Shown one piece after another: positions 1 to 21,618 of a DNA stretch of 64,000 bases; position 1 is the stretch's first letter, and each line of letters opens with the position of its first letter. This DNA comes from Candidatus Polarisedimenticolaceae bacterium (GTDB lineage: Bacteria; Pseudomonadota; Gammaproteobacteria; Chromatiales; Chromatiaceae): positions 1 through 64,000 of the forward strand of contig JAKITT010000007.1 in the NCBI GenBank assembly GCA_021647945.1, written 5' to 3'. A program made the translations under genes and the position numbers. The notes below the pieces were generated by a model. The model was not told the DNA's origin and did no database searches. It worked only from the letters and a program-made list of their open reading frames with translations.

Positions 1-1
1 A

Positions 2-190
2 TCCGGCTTGATCACCTATCTTCTGTTAGCTATTTACTGCCATGAGGAACATGATGAATGCGTTTCTATAAAGCGCGTGAGAGAGCTGCGAACCAAAATC
101 CTCAATGAAACCCGAGAATCACAGGTCGCACCACCAGATCCTGGGGACGTAGACTCTCGAAATCCGGAGGGTTTACATGCAAGTACCTAA
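2..190 (+). CDS. C-terminal fragment of an unrecognised protein
   Basis: An open frame enters from the left edge and ends with TAA at 188-190, giving about 62 residues. It begins with a hydrophobic stretch (SGLITYLLLAIY) followed by a charged helix-like segment and a Pro/Asp/Gly-rich tail. The hydrophobic GLxxYLLL pattern resembles the end of a PspC-type membrane domain, but that is only a resemblance. The stop codon lies inside ACCTAAC (185-191), which matches the integron inverse-core consensus RYYYAAC, so the frame may end at a cassette boundary. It overlaps the 3' end of the lipoprotein frame on the other strand by 18 bp. It is probably the remainder of a gene lying mostly outside the window. 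Confidence 0.35.
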   Translation, partial: SGLITYLLLAIYCHEEHDECVSIKRVRELRTKILNETRESQVAPPDPGDVDSRNPEGLHAST

Positions 191-526
191 CCGGACACTA
201 CTGATAACGGCTAGAACAAATCCATTATTTGGGTCGGCTGGGCTAGGAATCAGTTCATTGGGTGGAGTAAATGTGACAGTGCTTGCTTGATCAACAATTA
301 CAATGTAATCAGGTTGTGATCCAGCAGCCAACGAAGTACCAACAAACCCTGTGTTTAATTGCGTACCAACTATAGTCGTGTCATCTCCTGATAGTGTTAT
401 TACTCCTGTAGTACTCCCTGATGAATTTTCATCACCATCCTGAGAATCGTCGCTGCCACTGCCACCACCACAAGCAGAAAGAAAGACTGTTAACATAAAA
501 GACGAAACCAATATCTTGATTTTCAT
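173..526 (-). CDS. Small lipoprotein carried in an integron cassette
   Basis: A 117-residue protein of unknown function. The start at 526 is chosen because AAAGGAAAA precedes the ATG and a lipoprotein signal follows at once: MKIKI, a hydrophobic core, and the lipobox LSAC with the Cys near residue 20. After the Cys comes a Gly/Ser/Asp-rich linker (GGGSGSDDSQDGDENSSGS), then a beta-rich region with no recognised domain. It lies immediately downstream, in minus-strand sense, of the attC at 580-692, as expected for the next cassette gene. Its last residues run through GTTAGGT (185-191), a GTTRRRY core-like site, and no attC hairpin is visible beyond it. The 3' end may therefore be a recombination junction that altered the C-terminus. 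Confidence 0.6.
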   Translation of the reverse strand: MKIKILVSSFMLTVFLSACGGGSGSDDSQDGDENSSGSTTGVITLSGDDTTIVGTQLNTGFVGTSLAAGSQPDYIVIVDQASTVTFTPPNELIPSPADPNNGFVLAVISSVRLGTCM

Positions 527-579
527 TATTTTTTCCTTTGCGCCTAAATTAATGGAAATACAGCTAGGCTGACGCCTGA

Positions 580-692
580 GCCTAACGCTTTGCATAACCT
601 GACCGCTGGAGCGTTGTTTGAATTGTGCTAGCGTAGCGGTAAGCACAATTCAAACAGCGCGGAAGCGGGTCAGGTTGATGCTTTTGTTAGCA
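580..692 (-). other. attC site A (integron recombination site)
   Basis: The outer cores are GCCTAAC (580-586) and GTTAGCA (686-692). Inside them the arms ATAACCTGACCGCT and GCGGGTCAGGTT pair, and the centre carries a long hairpin (GCGCTGTTTGAATTGTGCT and its near complement). Length is about 113 bp. Neighbouring minus-strand frames are oriented as cassette genes with attC at their 3' end. It is nearly identical to the site at 2810-2922. Confidence 0.85.
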
Positions 693-1200
693 CTTTTTTG
701 TTACTCAATACGGGCAAAACGACTCCCCTATTTATTGCAACACTATCACAGCGAGATGGGATTTTCATGGTTTGGCTTATCACCTTTATTTGCTATTTGA
801 TTCAACTGAACCAAAGGCTTTTATCATTTTGACTTGCTTTCATTCACACTCGATAAATTGACAGAAGCCGCATTACGGAACTGCGCTGGCGAGTTTGCTC
901 GGTATTGCATTTGCTGCATGAGCCATTATTTTTATTTTGAGTGATTTTGATCTGCCTCAATTATTTGCCATTCGGGTTCACTGAACCAAAGGCTTTTATT
1001 ATTTTGACTGACTTTTATTTACACTCAATAAATTGAAAAATGCGCCATCTCTGAACTGCGCTGATAAGTTTACTCGGTATTACATTAAGCCGCATCTGCA
1101 AATTCTTTTGACTTGCCTCTGATGGGAATTATTTGCTCCGGTTTTCATCTCTCTTTTAACAAAATTAAACTCAGATGGTAGTTTTTTATACCGTGCTAAC
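686..1200 (-). repeat. Near-ORF-less cassette, copy 1
   Basis: About 0.5 kb between attC A and attC B. It is similar along its length to the segments at 1296-1810 and 2916-3395. Each copy contains two diverged direct repeats of about 130 bp that begin CTGAACCAAAGGCTTTTAT and include GGAACTGCGCTG and TTTGCTCGGTATT; in this copy they start near 806 and 980. On the minus strand the frame that stays open in copy 3 is broken here by TGA and TAG just after MKASQNDKSLWFS. Its last codons (ending VLTKAST) are still conserved up to a stop in the attC. I see no long gene. It is either a decayed cassette or one whose product is RNA or a very short peptide. Confidence 0.75.
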
Positions 1201-1302
1201 GTTTTGCATAACCTGACCGCTGTGGAGGCGTTTTTTTGTGCTAGGCTTTTTTAGCACAAAAAAACGCCGCAGCAGCGGGTCAGGTTGATGCTTTTGTTAG
1301 CA
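1194..1302 (-). other. attC site B
   Basis: The outer cores are TGCTAAC (1194-1200) and GTTAGCA (1296-1302), with the same ATAACCTGACCGCTG / CAGCGGGTCAGGTT arms as site A. The central stem differs and is almost perfect: GGCGTTTTTTTGTGCTA pairs with TAGCACAAAAAAACGCC around a short loop. The shared arms with a different centre are typical of related attC sites in one array. Confidence 0.85.
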
Positions 1303-1810
1303 CCTTTTTGTTGCGCAATACGGCCTAAACAGCGCAGTTATTTATTGTAACCCTATCATAACGAGATGGCATTTTCATGGTTTGGCTTATCACCTTTATT
1401 TGCTATTTGATTCCACTGAACCAAAGGCTTTTATCATTTTGACTTGCTTTCATTCACACTCGATAAATTGGCAGATGCTCCATCACGGAACTGCGCTGGC
1501 AAGTTTGCTCGGTATTGCATTTGCTGCATGAGCCATTATTTTTATTTTGAGTGATTTTGATCTGCCTCCATTATTTGCCATTCGGGTTCTCTGAGCCAAA
1601 GGCTTTTATCATTTTGACTTACTTTCATTCACATTCAATAAATTGAAAAATGCTCCATCTTCGGAACTGCGCTGACAAGTTTGTTCAGTATTCCGCAAAC
1701 TGCATATGCAAGCTCTTTTAACTTACCTCCGATGCCTATTATTTGCTCTGCCATTTCCATTCTTTTTTTAGCAAAACTAAGCGCAGGTGGTGATTTTATG
1801 CTGTGCTAAC
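1296..1810 (-). repeat. Near-ORF-less cassette, copy 2
   Basis: The second copy of the ~0.5-kb segment, again with two internal repeats (starting near 1415 and 1590). The minus-strand frame begins MKASQNDKSLWFSGIK and then stops. The second internal repeat can encode a 28-residue peptide starting MKVSQNDKSLWLREPEWQ. Neither has a convincing ribosome binding site. The copies differ by scattered substitutions rather than blocks, so the duplications are not recent. Confidence 0.75.
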
Positions 1811-1934
1811 GTCCAAAATCACCTGCTTGCTGAAGGTTACGCTGCACCTTCCGCACGCAGTTAAATGAAAGAATGCAGCTAACTTAAAAACAAGCACCAC
1901 AGCAGCAAGTCTGCGTGGATTTTGCTTGTTATGC
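1804..1934 (-). other. attC site C (divergent type)
   Basis: The outer cores are TGCTAAC (1804-1810) and GTTATGC (1928-1934). Imperfect arms AAAATCACCTGCTTGCTG and CAGCAGCAAG...GGATTTT face each other over about 131 bp. The sequence differs from sites A, B and D. GTTATGC is the exact complement of GCATAAC at the edge of attC D, as expected if both ends belong to one cassette (1935-2815). Confidence 0.65.
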
Positions 1935-1952
1935 AATTTATTGGGCATAGAT

Positions 1953-2174
1953 ATGAGCGAAGAACCACAAGCTATACTTAACCTTTTAGAAGCTAGAAAA
2001 AGCCTTGTAGAAGCCAAAAAAAGATTTGAAAGCATGGGTCTATATATTGTCCCGCTTGAAGATGGAACTGAGCTTCAAAATATAGACAACTGCACAGCAA
2101 GAATTGCTGGTTTAGATAAGATCATTGCGAGAATGCGCGCACATTTTTCTCAAGAAGAGCGCAAATCTGGTTAA
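1953..2174 (+). CDS. Small coiled-coil-like protein, antisense within a cassette
   Basis: A 73-residue charged, helix-rich protein of unknown function (MSEEPQAILNLLEARKSLVE...). The ATG at 1953 is preferred because the longer frame would begin inside attC C; the upstream Shine-Dalgarno is weak. It runs opposite to the other cassette genes and its end overlaps the end of the minus-strand gene at 2122-2337 by 53 bp. The two proteins look distantly alike: both have Leu-x-Ala...Leu-x-Glu, then Ser-x-x-x-Tyr-x-Ile-x-Pro at matching positions. Possible explanations are a diverged duplicate in opposite orientation or two partner proteins. Confidence is limited by length. Confidence 0.45.
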   Translation: MSEEPQAILNLLEARKSLVEAKKRFESMGLYIVPLEDGTELQNIDNCTARIAGLDKIIARMRAHFSQEERKSG

Positions 2175-2337
2175 TTTTGTTTGATATTTCATTGCATTGG
2201 TCAGTTAGTTTCTCAGCTTCTTCGTGCGGCATGATTGAGTAATCAATTGAATTCAGCTTATTTTCTACTTCAGCTAGATCTTTATGTGCCGCATTTAATT
2301 TATGGAATAGTGATTTATGCTCATTTGTTGATGCCAT
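2122..2337 (-). CDS. Small coiled-coil-like cassette protein
   Basis: A 71-residue hydrophilic protein predicted to be mostly helical, with no recognised domain. The start at 2337 is supported by GAGGAAAAG a few bases upstream of the ATG. It follows the lipoprotein gene at 2406-2789 in the same direction with a 68-bp gap, so one cassette seems to carry both. It converges on the plus-strand gene at 1953-2174, which overlaps its 3' end. Confidence 0.5.
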   Translation of the reverse strand: MASTNEHKSLFHKLNAAHKDLAEVENKLNSIDYSIMPHEEAEKLTDQCNEISNKINQICALLEKNVRAFSQ

Positions 2338-2405
2338 TTGCTTTTCCTCTTTTTTGCATAATGTTGCCAATAATCGGGGTTTTAAAATGGGGTTTATTAG
2401 GCGCA

Positions 2406-2789
2406 CTAGCATACAAGTCGTTTTGGATATCTGATGTCTGTGACAACCCATATCTGACGAGTGCTGTCCCATGTCGTCATATAACTTATTAAGCATCCTT
2501 CACTATGGGCAACACCACCTCCAGTTGTAATCGAGGTTGAAGAAAGCCACGCGCTATTGCCAACAGAGGTTATAGTGCCGTCTGTTGTCGTGGTTCTTGG
2601 GATGCTGTAGGTTCCACCTCCCCACCTGAACTGGAAAGCCCTTACTCCACTACCCATGTCTAATGCATTTAATGGAGGGCCACTGTCGAGTATTACTTCA
2701 CGAATATCTTTCCCCATGTACTGCTTCATGTGTGTCGAAACACAGCCGGATAAGACAAGCAGCAGTACAGCAACGAATATAGTTTTCAT
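2406..2789 (-). CDS. Cassette-encoded lipoprotein, 127 residues
   Basis: The start at 2789 is chosen because GGAG lies 8-9 bases before the ATG and a lipoprotein signal follows (MKTIFVAVLLLVLSGC, with the lipobox Cys at residue 16). The mature part resembles small SmpA/OmlA-like or YgdI-type outer-membrane lipoproteins in its opening pattern: a KQYMGKDIREVILDSGPP stretch, then aromatic beta-rich segments. It carries no diagnostic motif. It is the first gene after attC D in cassette sense. Function is unknown and an envelope location is inferred from the signal. Confidence 0.6.
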   Translation of the reverse strand: MKTIFVAVLLLVLSGCVSTHMKQYMGKDIREVILDSGPPLNALDMGSGVRAFQFRWGGGTYSIPRTTTTDGTITSVGNSAWLSSTSITTGGGVAHSEGCLISYMTTWDSTRQIWVVTDIRYPKRLVC

Positions 2790-2809
2790 GCTATTACTCC
2801 GTCTTTTTT

Positions 2810-2922
2810 GCATAACGCTTAGCATAACCTGACCGCTGGAGCGCTGTTTGAATTGTGCTAGCGTAGCGGTGAGCACAATTTAAACAGCACGGAAGCGGGT
2901 CAGGTTGATGCATTTGTTAGCA
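2810..2922 (-). other. attC site D
   Basis: The outer cores are GCATAAC (2810-2816, imperfect) and GTTAGCA (2916-2922), with the same internal arms and central hairpin as attC A. The two sites differ at only a few positions. It ends the third near-ORF-less cassette and holds the stop codon of the 57-residue frame. Confidence 0.85.
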
Positions 2923-3073
2923 CTTTTTTATTACTCAATACGGGCAAAACAACTCTGTTATTTATTGTGACTCTACCACAAAGAGATAACATTTTAATTG
3001 TTTGATTTTGCACTATTATTTGCCATACGATTTCACTGAGCCAAAGGCTTTTATTATTTTGACTTACTTTCAT
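2900..3073 (-). CDS. Possible 57-residue cassette peptide
   Basis: An ATG frame running from 3073 to a TGA inside attC D (2900-2902). It encodes a short protein starting MKVSQNNKSLWLSE and ending VLTNAST. The same frame is recognisable in the two sister cassettes but is interrupted there by early stops. No clear Shine-Dalgarno precedes the ATG. Ending inside the attC is usual for cassette genes. It could be the intact ancestor of decayed copies or a chance frame; conservation of the last ~18 codons partly reflects conservation of the attC itself. Confidence 0.35.
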   Translation of the reverse strand: MKVSQNNKSLWLSEIVWQIIVQNQTIKMLSLCGRVTINNRVVLPVLSNKKVLTNAST

Positions 3074-3395
3074 TCACACTCGATAAATTGACAGAAGCCA
3101 CATCACGGAACTGTGCTGGCAAGTTTGCTCGGTATTGCACATACCGCATGAGTAAATGTTTTTTGTCATTTTGTTTCACTGAACCAAAATCTTTTATCAT
3201 TTTGACTGGCTTTCATTCACATTTAATAAATTGACAGGAGCTTCATCACGGAACTGCGCGGGCAAATCTGCTTGGTACTGCACGAACCACATCTGCCAGT
3301 TCTTTTGACTTGCCTATGATGCCCATTATTTGCTCTGTCATTTTCATATTTTAGCAAAGCTAAGCTCAGATGGTGATTTTTTATGTTGTGCTAAC
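2916..3395 (-). repeat. Near-ORF-less cassette, copy 3
   Basis: The third copy of the ~0.5-kb cassette, again with two internal direct repeats (starting near 3034 and 3179). Unlike the other two copies, the minus-strand frame from the left internal repeat into attC D is uninterrupted (see 2900-3073). Its starting core (GTTAGCA on the minus strand at 3389-3395) matches the core of its own attC (2916-2922), which supports these boundaries. Confidence 0.75.
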
Positions 3396-3487
3396 GCTTA
3401 GCATCACCGGCTGGAAAAAGTGGTGTGGCTGTAGCGCAGCGAAAGCCGCGCCGCTTTTTCCAGTCCGAGTGTATGCTTTTGTTAGGC
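3389..3487 (-). other. attC site E
   Basis: The outer cores are TGCTAAC (3389-3395) and GTTAGGC (3481-3487). The arms GCATCACCGGCTGGAAAAAG and CTTTTTCCAGTCCGAGTGTATGC largely pair, and the centre (GTGGTGTGGCTGTAGCGCAGCGAAAGCCGCGCC) holds a smaller hairpin. The neighbouring gene at 3482-4210 stops within the GCCTAAC core, the classic cassette arrangement. Confidence 0.85.
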
Positions 3488-4210
3488 GATTTCATCTGGG
3501 AAACGTCCCATATTTTGAGCTTCACGCGCAAACCCTGCTATGCAATCCATGTCTTTAATATCTTTGATTGCCATACGCACCGTACCAGTTTCAGATAAAA
3601 CAAACCCTCTTATTATCTTTGGTACATTATGAGATGCCACAAAATATAACCATGCAATTGACCCAAATATAAACCTATATACAACATACCCGTTTATTCT
3701 TTTTTTCTCTGGCTGGTCGATAAAACTACTCATTGTATCCTCCCCGGCTTTTATTGCCATCATTACACAGCAATACTCTATTGCTGTACCGGGTTTATTA
3801 GACATGAGCATTTTTCTGATAGTTAACTCATGTGGACCAAGACTGACATCTTTGAACATCTTGTGATTTGATATTGACGCCCTCCAAAGTATAGAAAGTT
3901 GAAATAACTTAAAGAGCTTGTAATCAATATCAGATACAACTATTCCACCATCCTCATTAAGAACGGTAATTTCCACACCACCAAACAACACCTTTCTTGC
4001 GTAATTTTCATATCTTGATATGTGCTGCTCACAATCTATGCACAACAGCCTTTCTCTAATACCTTTTTGCTCTTTCTCTCTATCCTTTTGTTTATAGGTA
4101 GAAATGACATGGAACCTATGTTTTTCATCGTATAGCGACTTATATATGAACTCAGGAATAATATGTGAGTTCATTAGTTTTTTATCTTTATTGCATAATT
4201 TGCATAGCAT
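3482..4210 (-). CDS. HNH/treble-clef-like cassette protein
   Basis: A 242-residue protein. It opens with a Cys pair, CKLCNK, then SHIIPEF, then LCIDCE around residue 56. This CxxC...SHIIP...CxxC pattern is shared by a family of HNH-like treble-clef proteins, often annotated hypothetical, whose His may be catalytic. The rest is not recognised. The stop TAA lies in attC E. An in-frame TGA just upstream forces the start to 4210 or later; AAAGGAGG is about 20 bases upstream of that ATG, a longer spacing than usual. It shares one cassette with the repeat protein at 4237-4569, since no attC lies between them. A nuclease, possibly defensive, is only an inference. Confidence 0.55.
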   Translation of the reverse strand: MLCKLCNKDKKLMNSHIIPEFIYKSLYDEKHRFHVISTYKQKDREKEQKGIRERLLCIDCEQHISRYENYARKVLFGGVEITVLNEDGGIVVSDIDYKLFKLFQLSILWRASISNHKMFKDVSLGPHELTIRKMLMSNKPGTAIEYCCVMMAIKAGEDTMSSFIDQPEKKRINGYVVYRFIFGSIAWLYFVASHNVPKIIRGFVLSETGTVRMAIKDIKDMDCIAGFAREAQNMGRFPDEIA

Positions 4211-4236
4211 AGAAAATCAGCCAATAATTTCCTCCT

Positions 4237-4569
4237 TTAGTAATTACTATAGGGGTTCGAGTAGGGCCTCATGGTGTCCGTATTTAATCCCCTGCTTCTA
4301 TCTCGTAGAAGTGATTTTCCACCACCCGGCCCAATAGACTGCCCACCTCCGGGGCCTATTGATTGGCCACCACCCGGGCCTATCGACAAACCACCACCAG
4401 GGCCGATTGACTGCCCGCCTCCAGGGCCAATGGATTGACCGCCACCTGGACCTATTGAATTACAACCTCCAGGGCCAATAGAGCCTGGAACACAATCACG
4501 CCATGCTTGTGCATGAACGCCGGCAGAATTTAATGCCAGAAATGCTGTAACCAGAATAATCTTTTTCAT
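4237..4569 (-). CDS. Secreted SIGPGGGQ-repeat protein
   Basis: A 110-residue protein. The start at 4569 has GAGGAG a few bases upstream, and residues 1-21 form a Sec signal peptide (MKKIILVTAFLALNSAGVHAQA). The mature chain is about seven tandem octapeptides of the type SIGPGGGQ, bounded by a Cys-containing first unit and a short charged C-terminus. The DNA of the octads is only moderately conserved, so the peptide rather than the DNA seems maintained. Gly/Pro repeats suggest a flexible extracytoplasmic polypeptide. Its role is unknown. It is the first gene of the array from the right. Confidence 0.6.
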   Translation of the reverse strand: MKKIILVTAFLALNSAGVHAQAWRDCVPGSIGPGGCNSIGPGGGQSIGPGGGQSIGPGGGLSIGPGGGQSIGPGGGQSIGPGGGKSLLRDRSRGLNTDTMRPYSNPYSNY

Positions 4570-4623
4570 CTTTATTTCTCCTCGCCCAATGTTGGTAATA
4601 AAAGTAGACGCCGGGCGTTTTAC

Positions 4624-4630
4624 GCCTAAC
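4624..4630 (-). other. Core-like site at the right end of the cassette array
   Basis: GCCTAAC here (GTTAGGC on the minus strand) matches the core of attC E (3481-3487) exactly. It is therefore the likely start of the two-gene cassette 3481-4629. It sits 55 bp upstream of the ATG at 4569. It could be the attI-cassette junction, but no attI motif or integrase gene was recognised to its right. Confidence 0.5.
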
Positions 4631-4638
4631 TTATTAGT

Positions 4639-4775
4639 ATCAGGCGCATTTGCCCGGTTTCCCCGTGGTATTAAACTGGAAATCAGGCATATTTGCCTGA
4701 TAAGCACCCCAATTCAGGCAACTTCGCCCTGATAATACGATAACGAACATGTTATCAGGCATATTCGCCAGATAA
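4639..4775. repeat. Four phased palindromes at the array edge
   Basis: Four imperfect palindromes close to ATCAGGCATATTTGCCTGAT begin near 4639, 4682, 4713 and 4754. The start-to-start spacings of 43, 31 and 41 bp are close to whole helical turns, so all would face one side of the helix. A related GGCGTTTTACGCC lies just before them (about 4613-4626). They may be operators of a DNA-binding protein, an accessory region of attI, or an extragenic palindrome cluster. Confidence 0.6.
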
Positions 4776-10407: not shown

Positions 10408-13400
10408 TTATCCTTGAATCGCTCTACTGGCCACTGTTACTGACCCATTATCTTGAATAGATGATAACTCTTCCTCATCATCCTCGTCCTCATCATCTTC
10501 CAACTGATCTTCTGATAGCAGCAGACCATCACCGACAATATTGAAGATTTTGGTCTCCGTCTTGAGCAGCGCGGAGTCGGCATCAACCACCTGTATATCC
10601 GCACTGGCCTGTACCTGACCCGCCAGTTCACGCTGTAGGCCGGCAACATCAACCAGCGAATTACCAAATGCAAAGTCTGAGAGGAAGCCACCACTCGTCT
10701 CGTATTGGCGCAGATCGTTGACAATCGTTGCGGCGCTGGAACCTAGACCACCAATATAGGCGGTGCTGCTAAAGGCAAGGTTGATCACACTAATACCTGA
10801 CTGAAAGGTCAGTGGCGCACCTGAGGTACCAATGGCGCCACTAAATGCGTAGATATTCGCCGTGCCTGTTCCGGTGATATTGACTGCATCAGTCGTCGCT
10901 AAAACATTCCCATTCTGAGACGTCACATTGATATCTGCTGCGCCAGCATTTAGTTGGGCAACGGTAACATTTTGACTGCCGGTATAGACTATTTTATTGC
11001 CCGAAGTGGTGGTGCTAGCGCCTTTGTTCATCGTTATAGCACCCACATCGGCAAAAACTCTGACCTCGCCATCTATTGAGATGGCACCCGATTGGGTTAT
11101 TGAGCCTGATTGGCTCTGTAGCCAAAGATCGCCACTCCCCGTCACCGAGGAGATATTCATTGCGCCCGCATTGACCACTTGCATATCACCCGACCCACTG
11201 TTTGAAAGTGAGAGGTTCGAGACATTGGTTTCCAGCTTATCAGCGACTGTGCCAATCCCTTGCGTCGCGGTTAAGCTGAGGGAGTCAGCAGTGATGTTAT
11301 TGGCTGCACCATTGCTATCGGTTATCCCCAAACCGACCGAAAGGTTGACGTTTTGGCCTGTTGCATCAATATTGTTGAGCGCTAAACTTGCCGCATTCAG
11401 ATCCAGCTGACCACTCACTGTAGAGTCATTCACGATTAGCGCGCCGCTATTGCTAATTGATGTCGCCGCTGTGTTTAGGCTTAAGTTTGAGACCGTTGTT
11501 ACAAGCCCCGTCACCGCATTATTACCGACAATATTCAACGTCTCAGCGGTAATTGTTCCACCGCTAATCTCTCCACCAATGGTTAGGTTAACGGTCTGAC
11601 CTGTTGCATTGAGGTTATTAAATGCGATGGCTGCATCATTGGAGAGATCCAATTGACCTGTCAGGGTGGAGTCATTGAGTGTGAGCGCACCACTGTTGCT
11701 GATTGAGGTTGCCGCAGTGGTTAGTGCCAAGCTGCTGACACTTGTTTCAATATCTGTTACCGCACCATTGCCGGTAATGACGAGATTATTGGCAGTGATA
11801 TTGACGGTGGTGTCAGCACCACTCGCATCCGCATTGCCATCGGTGATGGCACCACCGGCATTTAGCTCAACATCGCCACTGCCCGCATTGACGGTGTTTA
11901 ATGCCAACGCAGCACTCTGATCGATATAGATACCCCCTATACCGTTGGAGGCCGATGCCGTTAGCGCACCCGTTACCACGGTATCAATGGCATCCACCCC
12001 GGTCGCACCGATCGATGCACCAGAGCCATTCGCGATCAACATCAGATCATAGGCCGTTAGTGCACCTGCTCCAGCTGTTATATCACCTGCAGTCACCGTC
12101 AGAATTAGGCTGTCCGTCGCATTGCCAAGATCACCATCAATCACCCAACTGGTGGCGGTGAGATCGACCGTCTGAGCGCTGCCTGCCGTGATCAAGGCCA
12201 CCGCTGAGGTGTTCAGCGCAATGCTATTTACGACGCTGATATTGCCTGCTGCATCCACACCCGCAGAGGTCAGATTGAGAGCGGTTGCTGCGGTATTGAT
12301 GGCACTATCACCGCCGATATCAGTTGCCGAATCTAGGCTCAAGGCATTGGCGGTCAATCTGCCTGTACCGCCCTCTATATCGCCTGTCGTCGCCGTCAGC
12401 TTCAGGTTGTCTGTTGCGCTGCCCAGATCACCACCGACCACCCAACTGGTCGCCGTGAGTTCTACCGTCTGGGCGCTAGCGTCTGTGACCAGCGTGACGG
12501 TGAAGGTATCCAGGGAGCCTGTATCAACCACCCTGATGTCACCTGCTGCATCGACACCTGCAGTGGTCAGATTGAGAGAGGTTGCTGTGGTATCAACCGC
12601 TATGCCACCACCAATATCGGTGGCTGCATTCAAGCTCAGGGCATTGGCTGTCAGTCTGCCTGCACCGCCCTCTATATCGCCTGTCGTTGCTGTCAGCGTC
12701 AGGCTGTCTGTCGCATTGCCAAAATTGCTATCAACCACCCAACTGGCTGCGCTGAGATCTACCGTCTGAGCACTGCCTGCCGTGATCAGGGCCACTGCTG
12801 AGATGTTTAGCGCACCACTATCTACAACGCTGATGTTGCCCGCTGCATCTGCACCCGCAGTGGTCAGACTCAAAGTGGTCGCAGAGGTATTGATGGCTGT
12901 ACCGCCGCCGATATCAGTGGCGGCATCCAGGCTCAAAGCATTGGCGGTCAATCTGCCTGCACCGCCCTCTATATCCCCTGTTGTCGCTCTCAGCGTCAGG
13001 TTATCCGTTGCATCGCCTAGATTGCCACCGACCACCCAGCTGGCCGCCGTGAGCTCTACCGCCTGTACGGTAGCGTCTGTCACCAGCGTGACAGTGGAGG
13101 TGTTGAGGGAAGCTACATCCACAATCGTGATGTTGCCCGCTGCACCGCTACCGGCAGTGGTTAGATTCAACCCGCCCGCACGGGTCACTACAGCGCTGCC
13201 GATACCGATGCCACCGGCTGCACTCAGGGTGACATTACCGGTAGTGATGACCGTTCCACCCCCACCATCAATGTCACCCGCGGTTGATGTGATAGAGACG
13301 GGACTGCCTGTTGCTTGGCTAGAGAGATTTTCTGAGAGGGTAATAGTGCCGGTCGATTCGAGTGTAATGGCACCGGCCGTAGTCACTATTCCGGTGACAC

Positions 13401-16400
13401 CTGCAACGCTATTCACATCAAGGGCACCCGTATTTTCAATGAAGATATCACCTGCGCTGGTGGACGCTGCTGCCAGCGTGCCGGTCACCGTGGTGACATC
13501 GATCCCTCCAGTGGCATCCAGGGCGATAGTGGCTGCGGTGAGTGCACTGCCACCACTACCAACAATCCCATCTGAGATACCACCCGATGTTGCACGTAGC
13601 ACCAAATTATCTGTCCCCACATTGAGTGCGGCATCAATGGTCCAAGCCGTTGCCGACAGATCGATGGTTTGGTTGCTGCCCGCTGTGAGCAGACTCACGG
13701 CTGCTGCATTGAGGGCAGCGCTATTTAGAACGGTGATGTTACCCGCTGCATCTGCCCCGCCGGTGGTCAGATTGAGAGAGGTCGCCGTGGTATTGACGGC
13801 GGTGCCACCACCGATATCGGTCGCGGCATCCAGAGACAATTGATTGGCTGTCAGTCTGCCTGCATCACCCTCTATGCCACCTGTGCTCGCGGTCAGACTC
13901 AGGTTGTCTGTCGCATTGCCCAGATTGCCACCAACGACCCAACTGGCCGCAGTGAGATCTACAGTCTGGGCGGTGCCTGCGGTGGTGATGGTCAGCGCTG
14001 AAGTGTTCATCGCACTGCTATCCACGAGCGTGATGTTGCCAGCTGCATCGATACCGGTTGTGGTCAGGTTCAACGCACCTGCGCTGGTAGCGAGCGCACT
14101 ACCGATGCCGATGCCACCAGCGGCATTCAGGGTGACATTTCCAGTGCTGATGACGCTGCCACCGCCACCAATAATGTCACCACCCGTTGACGTAATGGTG
14201 ACGGGGCTACCTGTTGCTTGGCTGGTGATATTTTCCGAAACAGTGATGCTACCGGTCGATTCGAGTGTAATGGCACTGGCCGTGGTCAATATTCCGCTGA
14301 CACCGGCAACGCTATTCACATCAAGGGCACCTGTATTTTCAATGAAGATGTCGCCCGCTGCGGTCGATTGTGCTGCCAGGATGCCGGTTACAATGGTGGC
14401 GTCAATCGCGCCGGTAGCATCCAACGCAATAGTGGCTGCGCTGAGCGCTATGCCACCTGACCCCGCTGTGCCATCTGAGATATCCCCAGCGGTTGCACGC
14501 AGTGCCAGGTTATCTGTCCCCACATCCAATGCGGTATCAACAACCCAAGCCGCTGCTGTGAGATCAATCGTCTGTGTTGTGGCCGCTGTTGTCAGCGTCA
14601 CTGCTGAGGTGTTGAGGGCGGCTGAATCTGCTATCGCAATGTCGCCTGCTGCGCCGCTGCCTGTGGTGGTCAGATTCAACGCGCCTGCGGTGGTCTCTAT
14701 CGCATCAGCAACACCGATACCCGTCGCAACATTGATAACGATCGTGCCCCTCGCCGCGACGATATCACCATCGCTATCACCGGCATCTGATACGCCACCC
14801 TCGGTGCTATCAATGGTGACGGCTGTCACTGAAGCACTGCTGGTCTGGAGGCTGCCCAAGGCGATATCCTCATCAGCATTTAGGTCAATGGTGCCGCTAC
14901 CTGCATTGATGATGGTGCCATCCGCCATGGTCAAAGCACCACTGGCCGCACCGCCACTATCGAAGTCAGCAGTCACCTCAATGTTGCCACTTGTGCTGCT
15001 GACATCACCATCGGCACCCAAGGTGACATCATCATCTGCTCGCAGAGTGATGGTGCCTGAGTCGCTGTTTATGGTGTCGTTGACCACCAAATCACCCGCT
15101 GCGCCGCCATCGGCCAGCAGCGAGATGGTGCCTGTACCTACCGTGGTTACGCCGAACTGTCCCGCCGCCACCATTACGGTGCCCGTGATGGATGACAGGG
15201 AGATGTTACCCGCAGAGCCTTGAGCCAGTTTGTTGATGGTCAGGCCGTTGCTCTCAACAATTTCGATGTTGCCTGAGGTGCTATTGTCTACGTCCAAGGC
15301 ATCAATCGTGGTCTCGAGTGCATTGCCATTGCCAACCCCCGTTACCGCATTGATAACCAGCGTGCCACTATCCGCGACGATATCTACATCGCTATCACCG
15401 GCATCCATTATGCCGCCCTCGCTGCTATCAATAGTCACCGCCGTGGCCGAGCTGCTGCTGGTCTGAAGGCTACCCAGAGCGATATCCCCATCGGCATTTA
15501 GGTCAATGGTGCCGCTTCCCGCATTGATGATAGTGCCGTCCGCCATGGTCAAAGCACCACTGGCAACACCACCACCGTCGAAATCTGCTGTCACCTCGAC
15601 ACTGCCGCTGGTGCTGCTGACATCGCCACCAGCACCAAAAACCACATCATTATCTGTACGTAGCGTGATATCACCAGAGTCTGTGGTGATGACATCATTG
15701 ACGGTAAGATCACCGCTAGCTGCCGAATCGGCAAACAGGGTGATGCTGCCTGTTGAGGTGGCCGTCACATCATCGGTGACTGTGATGGAACCACCGGTAG
15801 AGGTGATAGTGATAGCACCCGGCCCAGTCTGGGCTATCGCTACGTTATCCCCATCCAGATCCACCAGCTCAAGCGCAGCGCTATCATTGGTGACATCCAA
15901 AACACCGCCTGAGGTGCCATCAAACTGACCTGTTGAGATGGTGATGCTCTCATCCGTTGCCGATTTGAAGAGCAATGCGGTGGTAGCGTCAATATCCAGG
16001 TTGCCCCCGCCGAAGCGGATGATATCTGTCCCTTCCAGGCGCAGATGGGCGGCGATGATGCCGTTGGTCAAGGTCAGCGTACCACTGGTTGAGACTAGGC
16101 CAATCGTGTCAGCCGCATCCAGGCCCGTCGTTGTACTGGCATCAATGTCACCCGTTGCCGTGAACAAAAGCGTTCCTGCGCCACCACTGTTGGCATTCAG
16201 ATTGGTCAGGGTGGGAGAGGCGGTGTCTGATACCGCAATAACACTGCCACTGGTCAGGTCGAGATCATTGGCCGTGGTGGTAATTGGCACATAACCCGTC
16301 TCATCAAATATATTGGTGACGGCACCAATATCACCACCCACATTGATAGTGATCTGGGAGCCACCGGTAGAGGCTGTAATGTTGGTCGCACCGCCGGAGG

Positions 16401-19400
16401 TGCCATCAATCACACTACCGCTGGTGGAGATGATACCCACCGCCGAGGTGGAGGTACTTGTGGTGGCCAATGCACCCAGCGTGATATTGCCATCCGCGCT
16501 TAGAGTGAGCGTGCCTACCCCGCTATCTATATTGATAGCGCCATCTGTGCCACCGTGAGTCATGGCAATGACACCACCGGTGTTGCCAACAGCATTGTCT
16601 GCTGTCAACGTGATGTTACCGCCGTTGCTGGAGAGATCCGCCTCGCCCGCGCCATCCTGGCCCACCAAAATATCATGGTTGGCGGTGATGGTAATGGTGC
16701 CAGCACTCACCCGCCCTGCCGCGATCTGGCCATCAATGATAATATCCATGCCGGTGGCAATAGCGGCCCCTTTAGAGGTGATGGTGACATTGGCATCGGC
16801 AACAACTTGGTTCGTATCTGTGGTGCTATCGGCATCAATTTGAACGCCCGCACCCGCAATGGCACCCGCATCTGCGATATCGGAACCGGAGATCGTTACA
16901 TTATCAACCGAATCAACCAGCCCATCCGCCTTTATCCAGACACCACCAACACCATTATTGCTGGTGTCTGCTATGAGGGTAATGTCACGATCTGAGGCCG
17001 TGCCTTCCACTGTCTCTTGAGTCTGTAGAACTGCATTGATGATGATGTCACGGTCGGCACTCAATGAGATCGCTGTATCTGGGTCGATCAGATCTGAATT
17101 TACAATGGTGTCCTGGCTCGTACCCGTCAGATTAATGTCTCCTCTGCCTAGTGTTGGCGAAACATTCAACGTCACACCATCGACATTAAGAGTACTTCCC
17201 CCCCCATTACCTGTATCAATCACCTCATTCACGGTAAAAACACCGGCATTATCTATGATGATATTGCCACCGTTGTTGCTGCCACTGTCACCTGTGGCTA
17301 CGCCCGTTCCACCCGCTGCAATGGTGAGACTGCCGCCTCCTGTCTGGTTGAAGATGATGGTAGGGGTGCCTGTAACAGTGGAGAGGCTCATGATATCGAC
17401 GGCTGATGCTGAGAGATTATCTAGATTAATATCTCCACCCACGGAGTCCGCCGTAATGGTCTGGCTAGCCAACTCGATAGCGTTGGCTGCACCGATGCCT
17501 GTGGCGGCATTGAGAAACACCACCGCCGCAGTGATGTCGGTAACGCCATCAGCACCCGCCGTGGCATCTTCAATAGCACCTGTGCTGCGAAGTTCCACAG
17601 TACCGCTCGCCGCATCAACGGATGCCACCGACATATCACCCGTCTCACTGATAAAGATACCCCCAGTACCGCTGCTTGCAGTGGCGAACAAGGTGCCACT
17701 CAGGGTGGTGTTGATGTCACTGCCTACGCCACTGGCACCGATGGCTGCATTAGTCGCATCCACCGTCAAAGTGAGGTTACCGGCCGTCACATCCGAGCTG
17801 TTATCGGTGATATTTCCAGTAATTGCACGCAGGTTCAGGTCATTTGCTGCGACATTAACGGTTCCCAAACCGATGCCATTGGCCTCAGTCAGGTAGAGAT
17901 CACCACTGGTGGTGGTGACGGCCAGATTATCTACGCTCAGGTTCAGGGCATCCGTCGCTGACGTGCCTATCCCTGTGGCGTCAATTATGGTCAGCGTTGT
18001 CGCTGTAATATCCGTGGTGGTATCGACACCCACAACATCTGTGATCGCACCCTCGGCATCCAAGCTCACGCTGGCATCACTGACCACTGCATCACCGGCC
18101 ACTGCAAAACCAAAACTATCTGAGTAGATGGTCAGCGGGGCATTGATTGTTACCGCCGCACCTCCGGCGTCGATTAGCGTTGCACCGTTGATGGTCGCTG
18201 AGCCAAATTCAATCGCACCTGAACTATCATCCAACGCCGCCAGATCCGTGGCATCAAGGCCCAAAGTGCCTGCTGCACCGGTGCCGGTGACATCCGCCGC
18301 CGTACCTATCTTCAACTGGGTGCCATTCTCTACAGCACGCAAACTCAATGTCGTGCCACCCTTGATCAGGTCACCACCCGCTGAGTTCAGATCCATCTCA
18401 TCCGCAACCAATGCTACGCTGCTCTCACCGGTGATTGAGGTGTTTGCATCCACCGTTAGAAGATTGTCGGCCGCTAGCGTCAGTGTCACGTTGTTACCGA
18501 CGATATCCGCTGCAGCCGTGGTGCCCATCGTGCCGGTGGTGGTGATCTCTACATCGCCGCCACTGGTCACATCTGCATCAATGGCTCCGATGATCAGATC
18601 ACCCGTCTGATTGATGAAGATACCGCCCGTGCTATTGTTGGCACTGGCCGTTAGGCTGCCGCTTAGTGCGGTATTAATCTCAGCGCCACTGCCACCTATG
18701 GCCGCGCTCGCTGCATTGGCAATTAAGTTCAAGTCACCGGCGGTAATGTTTGAGCCATTATCTAGCAAACTACCTGCGGTAGCGGTGAGCGACACCGTGC
18801 CGGCCCCCGCACCGATTGTCGTCACGTTGATATCACCCGTCTCTGTGGTTAGGCCGAAGTTCAGATTGCCCACCGCTGAAACATCCGTAACATCCACATC
18901 GGCGCCGTTATCCGCCAGTGTGAAGGTCATGCTGCCGTCCGATAGCAGATAGGTGGAATTTGTCGCCGTTGATGGGTTCACCGTCAAGGTCAGATCGGTC
19001 AACACCGTATCTGTCACCACCTCAAAGCTGCCATCGGTATCGATGGTCAGATTTGAGGTGCCACTCAGCTCCAGATCTGCCGTAGCACCAACACCCGATG
19101 CAGCCTTCAGACTCACTGTCGCTGCGGTGATATCTGTCACCGCATCTACATTGGCCGTCGCATCATCAATGCTGGTCACCGCCGTCAGTTCAACAGCGGT
19201 GCTGCCTGCATCAAGACTCGCCACACTGATGTCACCGACTGTCTCATTAACGAAGATACCACCCGTGCCGGTGTTGGCACTGGCGCTCAGGTCTCCTGTC
19301 AACGCAACATCCAGTGCAGCCACACTGGCTCCACCAATCGCCTGATTATTACCATCAGCCGTCAGTGTCAGGTCGCTCGCCGTAATATCGACCAGCGTAT

Positions 19401-21618
19401 CTGATGCCGATTCCGTGATCGAACCTGCTGTTGAGGTGAGGCTTACTGTGCCGGTGCCAGCGTCAATGGTTGTGATGCTGATATCACCGGTTGTGGCGGT
19501 ATAACTGAAGCTTGAAACATTTTGGTTGAGATCGACACTGTTGAGCAGATGCCCACTATTAATATCCACCGCATCGCCATTGAAGTAGCTGATGTCGATA
19601 TTGCCAGAGGTGGCATCAGCCACGGTGATATTGGTTGAGGCGATGGTGGCTGCCACCAGCTCATCAACCCTGATATCTCCCGCCCCGGTATCATTGATAG
19701 TCAGGGTCGTTGCCCCATCTATATCGAGCGTATTGGTCGCGCCGATGGCATCGGCAGTGAGATCTACCGCGCCTGTTGTTTTGATCTCTGCGGTGGCATT
19801 TGCTGCTGTTGTGATGCTGCCACCCGCATTGAGGGTGACGCTGCCTGAACCTGTTGTGATACCACCATCCAAGGCACTAAGGGCGATATTGCCACTCGCT
19901 TCAAGATTGACTGCTCCAGAGGTTCCGCCGCCGTTGCCTGTGGTGTTAAAGCCACCAGCGGTGAGATCTCCGCCTTGAGCCTGCAAGGTGATCGCACCAC
20001 CCTCGGTGCGGATAACATCATTTGTATCGGCAAAGGTGATCGCTCCGCCGGTGGAGGTGATGGTCAAACTACCTGTGGTTAGATCCAGCGTCACCAGATC
20101 ATTGCTGGTAATGGTTCCATCCGCTGTACCATCAACATCATTGATGGTGATGAGCCCCGTTGCTTCGAGCGTAATCGCGGTAGTTGCCGCTAAACTATCA
20201 ATGGCTCCCCAAGAGACCGTGTTACCACCAGAATCGGCAACCCCTTCTAGGATCTCACCGACAGTGGCCGTCGTCGTTAACTCATCATCATGATCAACAC
20301 TTGTATTGGTCTCATCGGTGATGGTCAATGTGGCCGGATCTAACAGCAGAGTGCCTACATCACCATTCGCAGCGCTCGTATCGACATCACCACGGAAAAG
20401 AAGCATCTCCTTGCCTGAGACCTCAACAGAGCCACCACTACCCGACTCAGCGCCACCCTTGGCACTGATATCACCATAATAAGCTGCGATCTCATCTGAC
20501 CAAACGACAACCTTGCCCCCATCACCATTTATGATGGCATCCGCTTTGATGCGACTATTGGCGCTGATATAGGTGCCTTTTGCATTTTTAATATCGGCGT
20601 TGTTGCCTTGGTAATCACCACCGATAAGCACTTCACCACCGCCCAAATCGCCAGAGGCATCAACGCTTGAGTTATCAAACAGGCCAACCTGATCACCGAG
20701 AATGTGGATTGTGCCACCCTCCCCTTCAGCAGATGTGGCACTTACATAACTATCACCCGTGAACAGGGTTGTGTCGTTAGCGATAATCTCAATCGTGCCG
20801 CCGTTGCCAGCAAAACCATCAGCCCTAATGGTGCCGCTATGCTCAACGTTGTCGCCCATAAGAGTGATGGAGCCACCCTGGCTACCTGAAGCGTCGAGGG
20901 TGCCACTATTGGCAACTGAACCACCGATGCCGATTAGGCGAATTTCTCCGCCTGAGTCATCAATACTGCCCGCTTTGATGATGCCGCTATTGTTCACCAC
21001 ACTGCCACTGAGGAAGACCGTCCCCCCCGTCTCAGCAGAGATAATTCCTTCGTTGATCACCTGACCTGCTTCCGCATAATCAGAGAAGATTTCGCTATAG
21101 TCACCCCGCATGAAGCGTGAGGCACTTATCTCTTTCGCTACAGCAAAAAAGCTGCTGACATTAATTACAGCAGTTTTACCAAAAATAAAGCCATTAGGGT
21201 TGGCCAGAAAGACCTTGCCGTTAGCCTCTATGCGACCAAAAATCTGGCTGGGGTTCTGATCAAGAATACGGTTGAGGACAGCAGAGGAGGCGTCGGGCTG
21301 CTCAAAGCGCACCAGCTCTTGTCTATCGACATTGAAGCTCTGCCACTCAACCACCATGCTGTTGCTATTTTGTTGGATCAGCGTGGTAGTGGTATTGGGT
21401 GTAGAGATCGTGCCTGAACCATCGACAATATTGCCCCCTTCAGGCGCTGCAAGTAGCATTCCCGGCTGTAGCAGTAGCATGCTGGCTGGCAGCAGCAGTG
21501 CCCTTCGAATAACGCGAGTCAGCTCTTTCAGCACAAACTGTGGCTGTTGATTCGGCTGGCTAGCCGCCTGTTTGATAACAGATTTCCGTCTTCTAATGCT
21601 GTTACGCATATCACCCAT
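10408..21618 (-). CDS. Giant filamentous haemagglutinin-like TpsA exoprotein
   Basis: A 3736-residue secreted beta-helix protein, the substrate of the adjacent TpsB. The N-terminus has a long charged leader with an extended signal (RRALLLPASMLLLQPGMLLAA). The TPS secretion domain follows (about 60-200), with NSMVVEWQSFNV and the variant ANPNGF in place of NPNGI. The remainder is low-complexity beta-helix built from Asp/Thr/Ala/Gly-rich units (ATTGDI, NLTTAG and similar), with very few Lys or aromatic residues. Long repeats occupy roughly residues 2000-3200. The C-terminus has a very acidic patch (EDDEDEDDEEEL) and ends SRAIQG, with no recognised toxin domain, anchor or Cys pair. It is probably an adhesin or biofilm/surface protein rather than a contact-dependent toxin. 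It lies 17 bp downstream of tpsB. Confidence 0.88.
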   Translation of the reverse strand: MGDMRNSIRRRKSVIKQAASQPNQQPQFVLKELTRVIRRALLLPASMLLLQPGMLLAAPEGGNIVDGSGTISTPNTTTTLIQQNSNSMVVEWQSFNVDRQELVRFEQPDASSAVLNRILDQNPSQIFGRIEANGKVFLANPNGFIFGKTAVINVSSFFAVAKEISASRFMRGDYSEIFSDYAEAGQVINEGIISAETGGTVFLSGSVVNNSGIIKAGSIDDSGGEIRLIGIGGSVANSGTLDASGSQGGSITLMGDNVEHSGTIRADGFAGNGGTIEIIANDTTLFTGDSYVSATSAEGEGGTIHILGDQVGLFDNSSVDASGDLGGGEVLIGGDYQGNNADIKNAKGTYISANSRIKADAIINGDGGKVVVWSDEIAAYYGDISAKGGAESGSGGSVEVSGKEMLLFRGDVDTSAANGDVGTLLLDPATLTITDETNTSVDHDDELTTTATVGEILEGVADSGGNTVSWGAIDSLAATTAITLEATGLITINDVDGTADGTITSNDLVTLDLTTGSLTITSTGGAITFADTNDVIRTEGGAITLQAQGGDLTAGGFNTTGNGGGTSGAVNLEASGNIALSALDGGITTGSGSVTLNAGGSITTAANATAEIKTTGAVDLTADAIGATNTLDIDGATTLTINDTGAGDIRVDELVAATIASTNITVADATSGNIDISYFNGDAVDINSGHLLNSVDLNQNVSSFSYTATTGDISITTIDAGTGTVSLTSTAGSITESASDTLVDITASDLTLTADGNNQAIGGASVAALDVALTGDLSASANTGTGGIFVNETVGDISVASLDAGSTAVELTAVTSIDDATANVDAVTDITAATVSLKAASGVGATADLELSGTSNLTIDTDGSFEVVTDTVLTDLTLTVNPSTATNSTYLLSDGSMTFTLADNGADVDVTDVSAVGNLNFGLTTETGDINVTTIGAGAGTVSLTATAGSLLDNGSNITAGDLNLIANAASAAIGGSGAEINTALSGSLTASANNSTGGIFINQTGDLIIGAIDADVTSGGDVEITTTGTMGTTAAADIVGNNVTLTLAADNLLTVDANTSITGESSVALVADEMDLNSAGGDLIKGGTTLSLRAVENGTQLKIGTAADVTGTGAAGTLGLDATDLAALDDSSGAIEFGSATINGATLIDAGGAAVTINAPLTIYSDSFGFAVAGDAVVSDASVSLDAEGAITDVVGVDTTTDITATTLTIIDATGIGTSATDALNLSVDNLAVTTTSGDLYLTEANGIGLGTVNVAANDLNLRAITGNITDNSSDVTAGNLTLTVDATNAAIGASGVGSDINTTLSGTLFATASSGTGGIFISETGDMSVASVDAASGTVELRSTGAIEDATAGADGVTDITAAVVFLNAATGIGAANAIELASQTITADSVGGDINLDNLSASAVDIMSLSTVTGTPTIIFNQTGGGSLTIAAGGTGVATGDSGSNNGGNIIIDNAGVFTVNEVIDTGNGGGSTLNVDGVTLNVSPTLGRGDINLTGTSQDTIVNSDLIDPDTAISLSADRDIIINAVLQTQETVEGTASDRDITLIADTSNNGVGGVWIKADGLVDSVDNVTISGSDIADAGAIAGAGVQIDADSTTDTNQVVADANVTITSKGAAIATGMDIIIDGQIAAGRVSAGTITITANHDILVGQDGAGEADLSSNGGNITLTADNAVGNTGGVIAMTHGGTDGAINIDSGVGTLTLSADGNITLGALATTSTSTSAVGIISTSGSVIDGTSGGATNITASTGGSQITINVGGDIGAVTNIFDETGYVPITTTANDLDLTSGSVIAVSDTASPTLTNLNANSGGAGTLLFTATGDIDASTTTGLDAADTIGLVSTSGTLTLTNGIIAAHLRLEGTDIIRFGGGNLDIDATTALLFKSATDESITISTGQFDGTSGGVLDVTNDSAALELVDLDGDNVAIAQTGPGAITITSTGGSITVTDDVTATSTGSITLFADSAASGDLTVNDVITTDSGDITLRTDNDVVFGAGGDVSSTSGSVEVTADFDGGGVASGALTMADGTIINAGSGTIDLNADGDIALGSLQTSSSSATAVTIDSSEGGIMDAGDSDVDIVADSGTLVINAVTGVGNGNALETTIDALDVDNSTSGNIEIVESNGLTINKLAQGSAGNISLSSITGTVMVAAGQFGVTTVGTGTISLLADGGAAGDLVVNDTINSDSGTITLRADDDVTLGADGDVSSTSGNIEVTADFDSGGAASGALTMADGTIINAGSGTIDLNADEDIALGSLQTSSASVTAVTIDSTEGGVSDAGDSDGDIVAARGTIVINVATGIGVADAIETTAGALNLTTTGSGAAGDIAIADSAALNTSAVTLTTAATTQTIDLTAAAWVVDTALDVGTDNLALRATAGDISDGTAGSGGIALSAATIALDATGAIDATIVTGILAAQSTAAGDIFIENTGALDVNSVAGVSGILTTASAITLESTGSITVSENITSQATGSPVTITSTGGDIIGGGGSVISTGNVTLNAAGGIGIGSALATSAGALNLTTTGIDAAGNITLVDSSAMNTSALTITTAGTAQTVDLTAASWVVGGNLGNATDNLSLTASTGGIEGDAGRLTANQLSLDAATDIGGGTAVNTTATSLNLTTGGADAAGNITVLNSAALNAAAVSLLTAGSNQTIDLSATAWTIDAALNVGTDNLVLRATSGGISDGIVGSGGSALTAATIALDATGGIDVTTVTGTLAAASTSAGDIFIENTGALDVNSVAGVTGIVTTAGAITLESTGTITLSENLSSQATGSPVSITSTAGDIDGGGGTVITTGNVTLSAAGGIGIGSAVVTRAGGLNLTTAGSGAAGNITIVDVASLNTSTVTLVTDATVQAVELTAASWVVGGNLGDATDNLTLRATTGDIEGGAGRLTANALSLDAATDIGGGTAINTSATTLSLTTAGADAAGNISVVDSGALNISAVALITAGSAQTVDLSAASWVVDSNFGNATDSLTLTATTGDIEGGAGRLTANALSLNAATDIGGGIAVDTTATSLNLTTAGVDAAGDIRVVDTGSLDTFTVTLVTDASAQTVELTATSWVVGGDLGSATDNLKLTATTGDIEGGTGRLTANALSLDSATDIGGDSAINTAATALNLTSAGVDAAGNISVVNSIALNTSAVALITAGSAQTVDLTATSWVIDGDLGNATDSLILTVTAGDITAGAGALTAYDLMLIANGSGASIGATGVDAIDTVVTGALTASASNGIGGIYIDQSAALALNTVNAGSGDVELNAGGAITDGNADASGADTTVNITANNLVITGNGAVTDIETSVSSLALTTAATSISNSGALTLNDSTLTGQLDLSNDAAIAFNNLNATGQTVNLTIGGEISGGTITAETLNIVGNNAVTGLVTTVSNLSLNTAATSISNSGALIVNDSTVSGQLDLNAASLALNNIDATGQNVNLSVGLGITDSNGAANNITADSLSLTATQGIGTVADKLETNVSNLSLSNSGSGDMQVVNAGAMNISSVTGSGDLWLQSQSGSITQSGAISIDGEVRVFADVGAITMNKGASTTTSGNKIVYTGSQNVTVAQLNAGAADINVTSQNGNVLATTDAVNITGTGTANIYAFSGAIGTSGAPLTFQSGISVINLAFSSTAYIGGLGSSAATIVNDLRQYETSGGFLSDFAFGNSLVDVAGLQRELAGQVQASADIQVVDADSALLKTETKIFNIVGDGLLLSEDQLEDDEDEDDEEELSSIQDNGSVTVASRAIQG
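12040..14690 (-). repeat. Higher-order tandem repeats within tpsA
   Basis: Modules of about 95-100 codons recur with the order NLTT-G-AAGNI, ALNTSAV, QTVDLTAASWVV, NATDNL-L-ATTGDIEGG, AGRLTANALSLDAATDIGGG. At least seven are recognisable. A larger unit of about 320 codons, which adds a segment with DIFIENTGALDVNSVAG, is itself duplicated. A second pair of repeats (ALTMADGTIINAGSGTIDL) lies at about 14.73-15.03 and 15.34-15.62 kb. Boundaries are approximate. Copies have diverged at the DNA level, yet length could still vary by recombination. Confidence 0.7.

Follow-up and report, generated by a model that had tools for sequence, protein, structure and literature searches.

What are three related segments of about half a kilobase, each almost devoid of open reading frames (ORFs), doing in a single bacterial contig? 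We addressed this question for the beginning of a 64,000-nucleotide stretch of DNA (the window: positions 1 to 64,000 of contig JAKITT010000007.1, assembly GCA_021647945.1, Candidatus Polarisedimenticolaceae bacterium), whose first base is also that of contig C63 in a 163-contig draft genome, here termed G000. The segments are the bodies of three integron cassettes, each bounded by attC sites and belonging to one family. We consider it likely that this is a family of gene-less cassettes, borne by their attC sites and moved by the integrase IntI, which persist as diverged copies and are mainly passengers. The alternatives weighed below include a promoter, a decayed gene, a regulatory element and a small RNA.

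Three attC-bounded gene-less cassettes in the window

The window opens with an integron cassette array that extends from position 1 to approximately 4.2 kb and reads on the minus strand, with small minus-strand ORFs separated by attC hairpins. The GC content of positions 1-4620 is 0.412; the remainder of the window has 0.515. The segments 686-1205, 1296-1812 and 2916-3400 (copies c1, c2 and c3) align along their entire length, with pairwise identities over ungapped columns of 0.867 (c1-c2), 0.805 (c1-c3) and 0.81 (c2-c3) and BLAST E-values of 4e-171 and 9e-103 against c1. These results confirm the kinship of the three ~0.5-kb segments described in an initial annotation of this DNA. The copies lie where that annotation had seen them, and their extents, with the attC sites included, were corrected to 586-1199 (c1, 614 bp, body GC 37%), 1200-1809 (c2, 610 bp) and 2816-3394 (c3, 579 bp), all on the minus strand and within 586-3394. 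Across the family, including the copies described below, body identity is 80-89%.

Each unit consists of an AT-rich body of 0.47-0.50 kb (GC 0.36-0.39, as against the 0.515 of the rest of the window) and its own attC, roughly 110 bp long. All three cassettes begin with GTTAGCAC, end in an attC of 109-113 nt and lack a substantial ORF. The boundaries were set from GTTAGCAC, the attC cores and the alignment; c1, for example, was taken from just past the G of GTTAGCAC through the G of the next GTTAG. The attC sites of c1 (580-692, 113 nt, 39 long-range pairs), c2 (1194-1302, 109 nt, 41 pairs) and c3 (2810-2922, 113 nt, 38 pairs), all on the minus strand, carry R'' and R' core ends and form long imperfect hairpins at the 3' ends of their units, with energies of -31.7 to -41.3 kcal/mol when the bottom strand is folded with DNA parameters. 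The attC of c3 is 94% identical to that of c1; the apical part of the c2 site is unlike both. The starts of c2 and c3 coincide with the R' ends of the attC sites of the preceding cassettes, at 1803-1935 (minus strand, read by eye; a cassette with two convergent small ORFs) and 3389-3487 (minus strand; the cassette with ORF 3482-4210). A further short attC near 2340-2400 was read by eye and had been missed by the attC script, which returned some spurious sites, gave most sites on both strands (they are palindromic) and recovered 1803-1935 only partly.

Two direct repeats lie inside each body, as the initial annotation had noted. The six repeat units, of about 148 nt, have start spacings of 175 nt in c1 and c2 and 143 nt in c3, which shows a 32-bp gap between its two repeats relative to the other copies. 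Repeats a and b occupy 962-1129 and 770-933 in c1, 1572-1740 and 1380-1543 in c2, and 3148-3326 and 3000-3147 in c3 (all on the minus strand). The two repeats of a cassette align over 110-125 nt with 80-85% identity (E-values between 6e-27 and 2e-33, search space 64 Mb), a similarity far beyond chance, and the identity of the six units to a reference unit ranges from 62 to 95%, marking them as one family. This internal tandem duplication of the body would be old and would predate the split of the copies.

A short frame, MK[AV]SQN[DN]KSLW[FL], had been reported at the same place in the repeats. The exact pattern with a start codon was found in four of the six window units; the deviating units are c1a, with ATA for ATG, and c3a, which reads KRFW for KSLW. 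The claim that only c3 keeps the frame open for 57 codons into the attC was correct (2900-3073, minus strand, ending inside the attC), and this length is expected by chance: an ATG frame of at least 57 codons occurred on the sense strand in 22% of 1000 dinucleotide shuffles (P 0.22) and on either strand in 46%. The longest sense-strand ATG frames in c1 and c2 (32 and 41 codons, with 57 in c3) are likewise no longer than the shuffles would predict. By the definitions given in the available parts of two studies of Vibrio cassettes, c1-c3 hold no sense-strand ORF >210 bp (PMC11014356), and c1 and c2 stay under a 150-bp ORF limit (PMC1382264; sense strand, ATG), whereas the frame of c3, at 174 bp with its stop codon, exceeds the latter with a length that chance would give.

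Copies in other genomes and probable recombination among them

A scan of the GTDB species genomes for exact matches to a 28-base pattern, which diverged copies elsewhere may have escaped, returned a single contig, JAJRUF010000094.1 (L009, 4.3 kb), from a gammaproteobacterial metagenome-assembled genome (G055). This contig carries a full copy 4 at approximately 3.56-4.18 kb, inside a cassette array, and a diverged partial copy, the fifth, in its first 140 bases. A search of 55 relatives gave one match, the window's own genome, and among the 210 genomes of the window's family there were two, the same genome and G225. The latter contains two copy heads, both ending at contig ends near the same point in repeat a, as repeats behave in short-read assemblies. 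Of 369 genomes drawn from the class, four matched: the window's own and three with matches of only 21-30 nt, which were treated as chance. A sequence model of the repeat unit matched six times in G000, four times in G055, twice in G225 and not at all in G001; one of the four G055 matches (E 0.23, contig C124) lies, by sequence reading, among cell-wall genes and was also taken as chance. No match was obtained in viral contigs with the exact pattern, or in plasmids or phages with blastn.

Seven insertion contexts were read: the window supplies three, L009 two (one of them at the contig end) and G225 two, as heads. These contexts differ, in that the attC sites preceding the copies are not alike, placing the same unit next to different cassettes. 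The family has the trait of the gene-less class of being paralogous within an array and common to the arrays of other genomes.

Both c1 and c2 are 0.891 identical to copy 4 in G055. For comparison, the glnA gene of G000 shares 91% identity with its G001 counterpart, 78% with that of G225 and 72% with that of G055. Since the cassettes are 89% alike and glnA only 72%, it is the cassette, not the chromosome, that the two genomes have in common. Unconstrained DNA so much more alike than glnA is not expected by descent, so that either the cassette moved between hosts or L009 was assigned to the wrong genome; provided that the contig is binned correctly, the cassette would travel between hosts. Some attC types are also common to L009 and G225 (87% and 88% identity).

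Copy 4 is a mosaic of c1 and c2. There are 67 sites that distinguish c1 from c2 and at which copy 4 matches either one. Through column 134 its base is that of c1 at all but two of these sites, and from column 141 onward it is that of c2 at all but three. The sites fall into 10 runs, and not one of 20000 shuffles gave so small a number. This pattern suggests that the paralogous copies recombine, probably as a cellular event and not as an artefact of assembly, and such homologous recombination would probably keep them similar. The c2 attC shares 89% identity with the site of an unrelated G225 cassette (L022, 1269-1379), compared with 85% for the c1 site and 79% for the c3 site, so parts of the hairpin may be exchanged too. 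Both the mosaic and the attC signal could in part be assembly effects.

These observations fit a scheme in which an integron integrase acting at attC would excise, move and re-insert the cassette. Three diverged copies would then stand in the array as the outcome of separate entries or duplications long ago, and not of a single recent local duplication. The most likely history is one of more than one capture, with integron recombination carrying the cassette. In support of this reading, the copies differ from one another by 13-20%, and for two of them the distance to a copy in another genome is no greater than the distance between the two. The initial suggestions had included a decayed cassette that was captured repeatedly; what the data support is repeated capture of a gene-less cassette, and "decayed" is unproven, as no intact coding ancestor was found by tblastn in plasmids, phages or the 210 family genomes.

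Coding tests and alternative explanations

To assess coding, we counted variable alignment columns by codon position across nine repeat units. Frame A had 20, 20 and 20 variable columns at positions 1, 2 and 3 (of 34 each) and frame B, the one pointed out in the initial annotation, had 7, 7 and 6 (of 19 each). The 57-codon frame up to the attC gave 14/19/14 of 50, and the 41-codon frame at the cassette head 14/15/13 of 41. In a sliding test of all phases, the largest phase imbalance in the cassette was matched in 138-215 of 500 permutations. The glnA gene served as positive control: its differences fell 13/8/112 by codon position at 91% identity and 49/33/219 at 78%, and a third-position excess was present in all 156-nt pieces with at least six differences (107/107 and 105/105). 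Indels between the copies measure 1, 2, 3, 4 and 32 nt and do not keep a reading frame. A selected peptide, one of the functions first put forward, thus failed in every frame and in the sliding test, under conditions in which glnA gave a clear signal. The cassette evolves like non-coding DNA, and it would make no selected peptide.

For this reason the most probable reading is that of a commonplace mobile passenger, perhaps a promoter. It would be kept mainly because its attC gives mobility and its cost is low. On this view it makes neither a selected peptide nor a structured RNA. Any effect on the host would lie in supplying transcription to neighbouring cassettes.

Several observations weigh against this view. 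G000 has two IntI matches over the cut-off, neither of them intact, one being interrupted by an in-frame TGA and the other covering only model positions 122-315. These broken genes (L010, C145:5283-6221; L011, C86:498-1079) are not beside a clear cassette array, and no convincing attC was seen next to them, the two weak script matches in L010 falling inside or between other genes. The array may therefore be without a working integrase of its own, or the integrase may lie outside the assembly; G055 and G225 have intact IntI matches over the cut-off and without stops, three and one, respectively. The copies come from draft genomes or metagenome assemblies, so that copy 4 may sit on a misbinned contig (4.3 kb) and its mosaic pattern may reflect an assembly chimera. 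Finally, conservation along the repeats (eight of the nine units, L9p being left out) is slightly uneven, with p 0.015-0.15, uncorrected, for the lowest-divergence windows and a stretch of 20-50 nt being the best conserved, so that a short conserved element may be present.

That conserved part, together with the AT-richness of the bodies, is consistent with a promoter cassette, in which a promoter in the body, or perhaps one per repeat, drives the neighbours and explains retention in several copies. This explanation shares our reading of what the unit is and departs from it on why the unit is kept; we hold it as a tentative possibility. The available part of one study reports that most of 29 tested gene-less Vibrio cassettes, of 491-666 bp with attC sites of 101-127 bp and thus close in size to those of the window, transcribe on the sense strand (PMC11014356). 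In the region 1-4700, however, we found 10 sigma-70-like sites versus 10.4 expected, which is the chance level, and no site passing the scan was common to the six repeats. A plus-strand TTGACT-N17-GATAAA in the b repeats, with AATAAA in a, was spotted by eye, fails the scan rule and is not claimed as a promoter. According to the same source such promoters are not predictable in silico (PMC11014356), so a scan at chance level is weak evidence against them.

It is likewise conceivable, if doubtful, that the repeats are what remains of a small gene (reading, for example, MK.SQNDKSLW..EPEWQIMG..GKSKELA..IPSKLASAVP.WSFCQF) that underwent tandem duplication and was then disrupted. In the alignment, frames A and B meet at CAAATAATGG, with overlapping stop and start codons (GAATGA), and the 41-codon frame, intact in c2 and L009, is interrupted in c1. 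Some gene-less Vibrio cassettes are described as degenerate genes in the available part of PMC11014356. A weak match to DUF3969 (PF13108; E 0.0019, 18.7 bits against a cut-off of 25) dropped to E 0.08 for the joined frame and was treated as chance. Against such an origin, even the most diverged units lack a third-position excess, which means that any coding phase was over before their split. No intact relative appeared either: tblastn with the frames matched one of the 210 family genomes, the window's own, plasmids and phages gave nothing significant (matches at E 1 to 9 were ignored), and NCBIfam, PHROGs and solved structures held no significant homologue.

We think it rather unlikely that the cassette acts as a mobile regulatory element of two units, with a putative control site, either a promoter or a regulator-binding site, in each repeat and a core near GTCAAAATGATAAAAGCCTTTGG. 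If it were, the duplication would serve strength or two-step control, and the cassette would be an expression module, homogenised by recombination and shared by integrons of distant gammaproteobacteria.

A structured regulatory RNA, also among the initial proposals, drew no support from folding, from the alignment or from Rfam. For four copies, taken whole and in 150-nt pieces on both strands, folding z-scores ranged from -2.1 to +1.3; the lone value of -2.1 belonged to the first 150 nt of the L009 copy and had no counterpart in c1, c2 or c3. Consensus folding found two-sided changes in one of 24 predicted pairs for the nine units and in 6 of 126 for the four cassettes. Rfam gave no match at gathering scores; at E up to 1 it gave seven, all below the cut-off (six microRNA models and one Flavo-1), six of which sit on the attC hairpin of c2 at 1205-1292. 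A small regulatory RNA (sRNA) gene has a precedent in sRNA-Xcc1 of a Xanthomonas integron (as cited in PMC8876359, seen in part), and unstructured antisense RNAs would evade these structure tests; with no covariation, no folding excess and no gathering-score match, we regard it as improbable here. A recent local tandem duplication of one cassette is scarcely credible even though c1 adjoins c2, as the two differ by 13%, each is closer to the G055 copy than to the other, and the c2 attC is nearer to a G225 site than to that of c1.

Relation to known gene-less cassettes and neighbouring features

The passenger cassette that we favour has counterparts in well-studied integrons, here compared from the available portions of the sources. 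Non-coding cassettes make up 6-49% of Vibrio arrays and are often paralogous and ~84-89% identical; they are described as lacking homologues outside vibrios, as possibly subject to gene conversion and as selfish or regulatory (PMC1382264). Expression of non-coding cassettes has been reported (PMC2945992), and ORF-less cassettes, including sRNA-Xcc1, have been reviewed (PMC8876359). Like the paralogous non-coding cassettes of Vibrio sp. DAT722 and others (PMC1382264), those of the window are attC-bounded and lack a substantial ORF, occur in several diverged copies per array (80-89% identical here; 84-88% among the Vibrio paralogues and 89% with other species), have no codon-position pattern and show likely gene conversion. 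In contrast to that set, the host is not a Vibrio, and no Vibrio locus was found in the exact-pattern genome scan; the internal tandem duplication present in every full copy may be a further difference. The promoter-bearing gene-less cassettes of Vibrionaceae (PMC11014356) are similar in size, attC length, AT-richness and absence of a sense ORF >210 bp; promoter activity was measured for them, whereas ours are known from sequence alone. ORF-less cassettes of oral metagenomes and Treponema (PMC6557892, PMC8876359) share the attC without an ORF and belong to a different host group. The integron-borne sRNA-Xcc1 has a non-coding product (cited in PMC8876359), while our cassettes gave no Rfam match at gathering scores.

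The window's cassettes thus fit the known gene-less paralogous class in size, copy number, divergence and absent codon signal; they differ from it in host, and perhaps in their internal tandem duplication, and are otherwise ordinary members. As a passenger the cassette is ordinary. It adds a gene-less family beyond Vibrio, Treponema and Xanthomonas, the hosts studied in the sources as available, and its copies seem to move between genomes whose glnA genes share only 72% identity, with recombination among paralogues probable. Should the body prove to be a promoter, the promoter-cassette idea would extend to the integrons of environmental gammaproteobacteria.

Elsewhere in the array, one cassette (1926-2337) holds two convergent overlapping small ORFs, 1926-2174 on the plus strand and 2122-2337 on the minus strand. 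They look alike by eye, BLASTP gave no alignment, and their homology was dropped. At 4237-4579 (minus strand) lies a gene for a small predicted secreted protein with an eight-residue repeat of SIGPGGGQ type encoded by 24-nt direct repeats, and a short 22-nt repeat of ATCAGGC type occurs three times at 4639-4775, between the array and the next gene. Further along, the minus strand encodes a repeat-rich protein of 3736 residues (10408-21618), which we take to be haemagglutinin-like, and an adjoining second gene (21636-23513), presumably for its outer-membrane partner.

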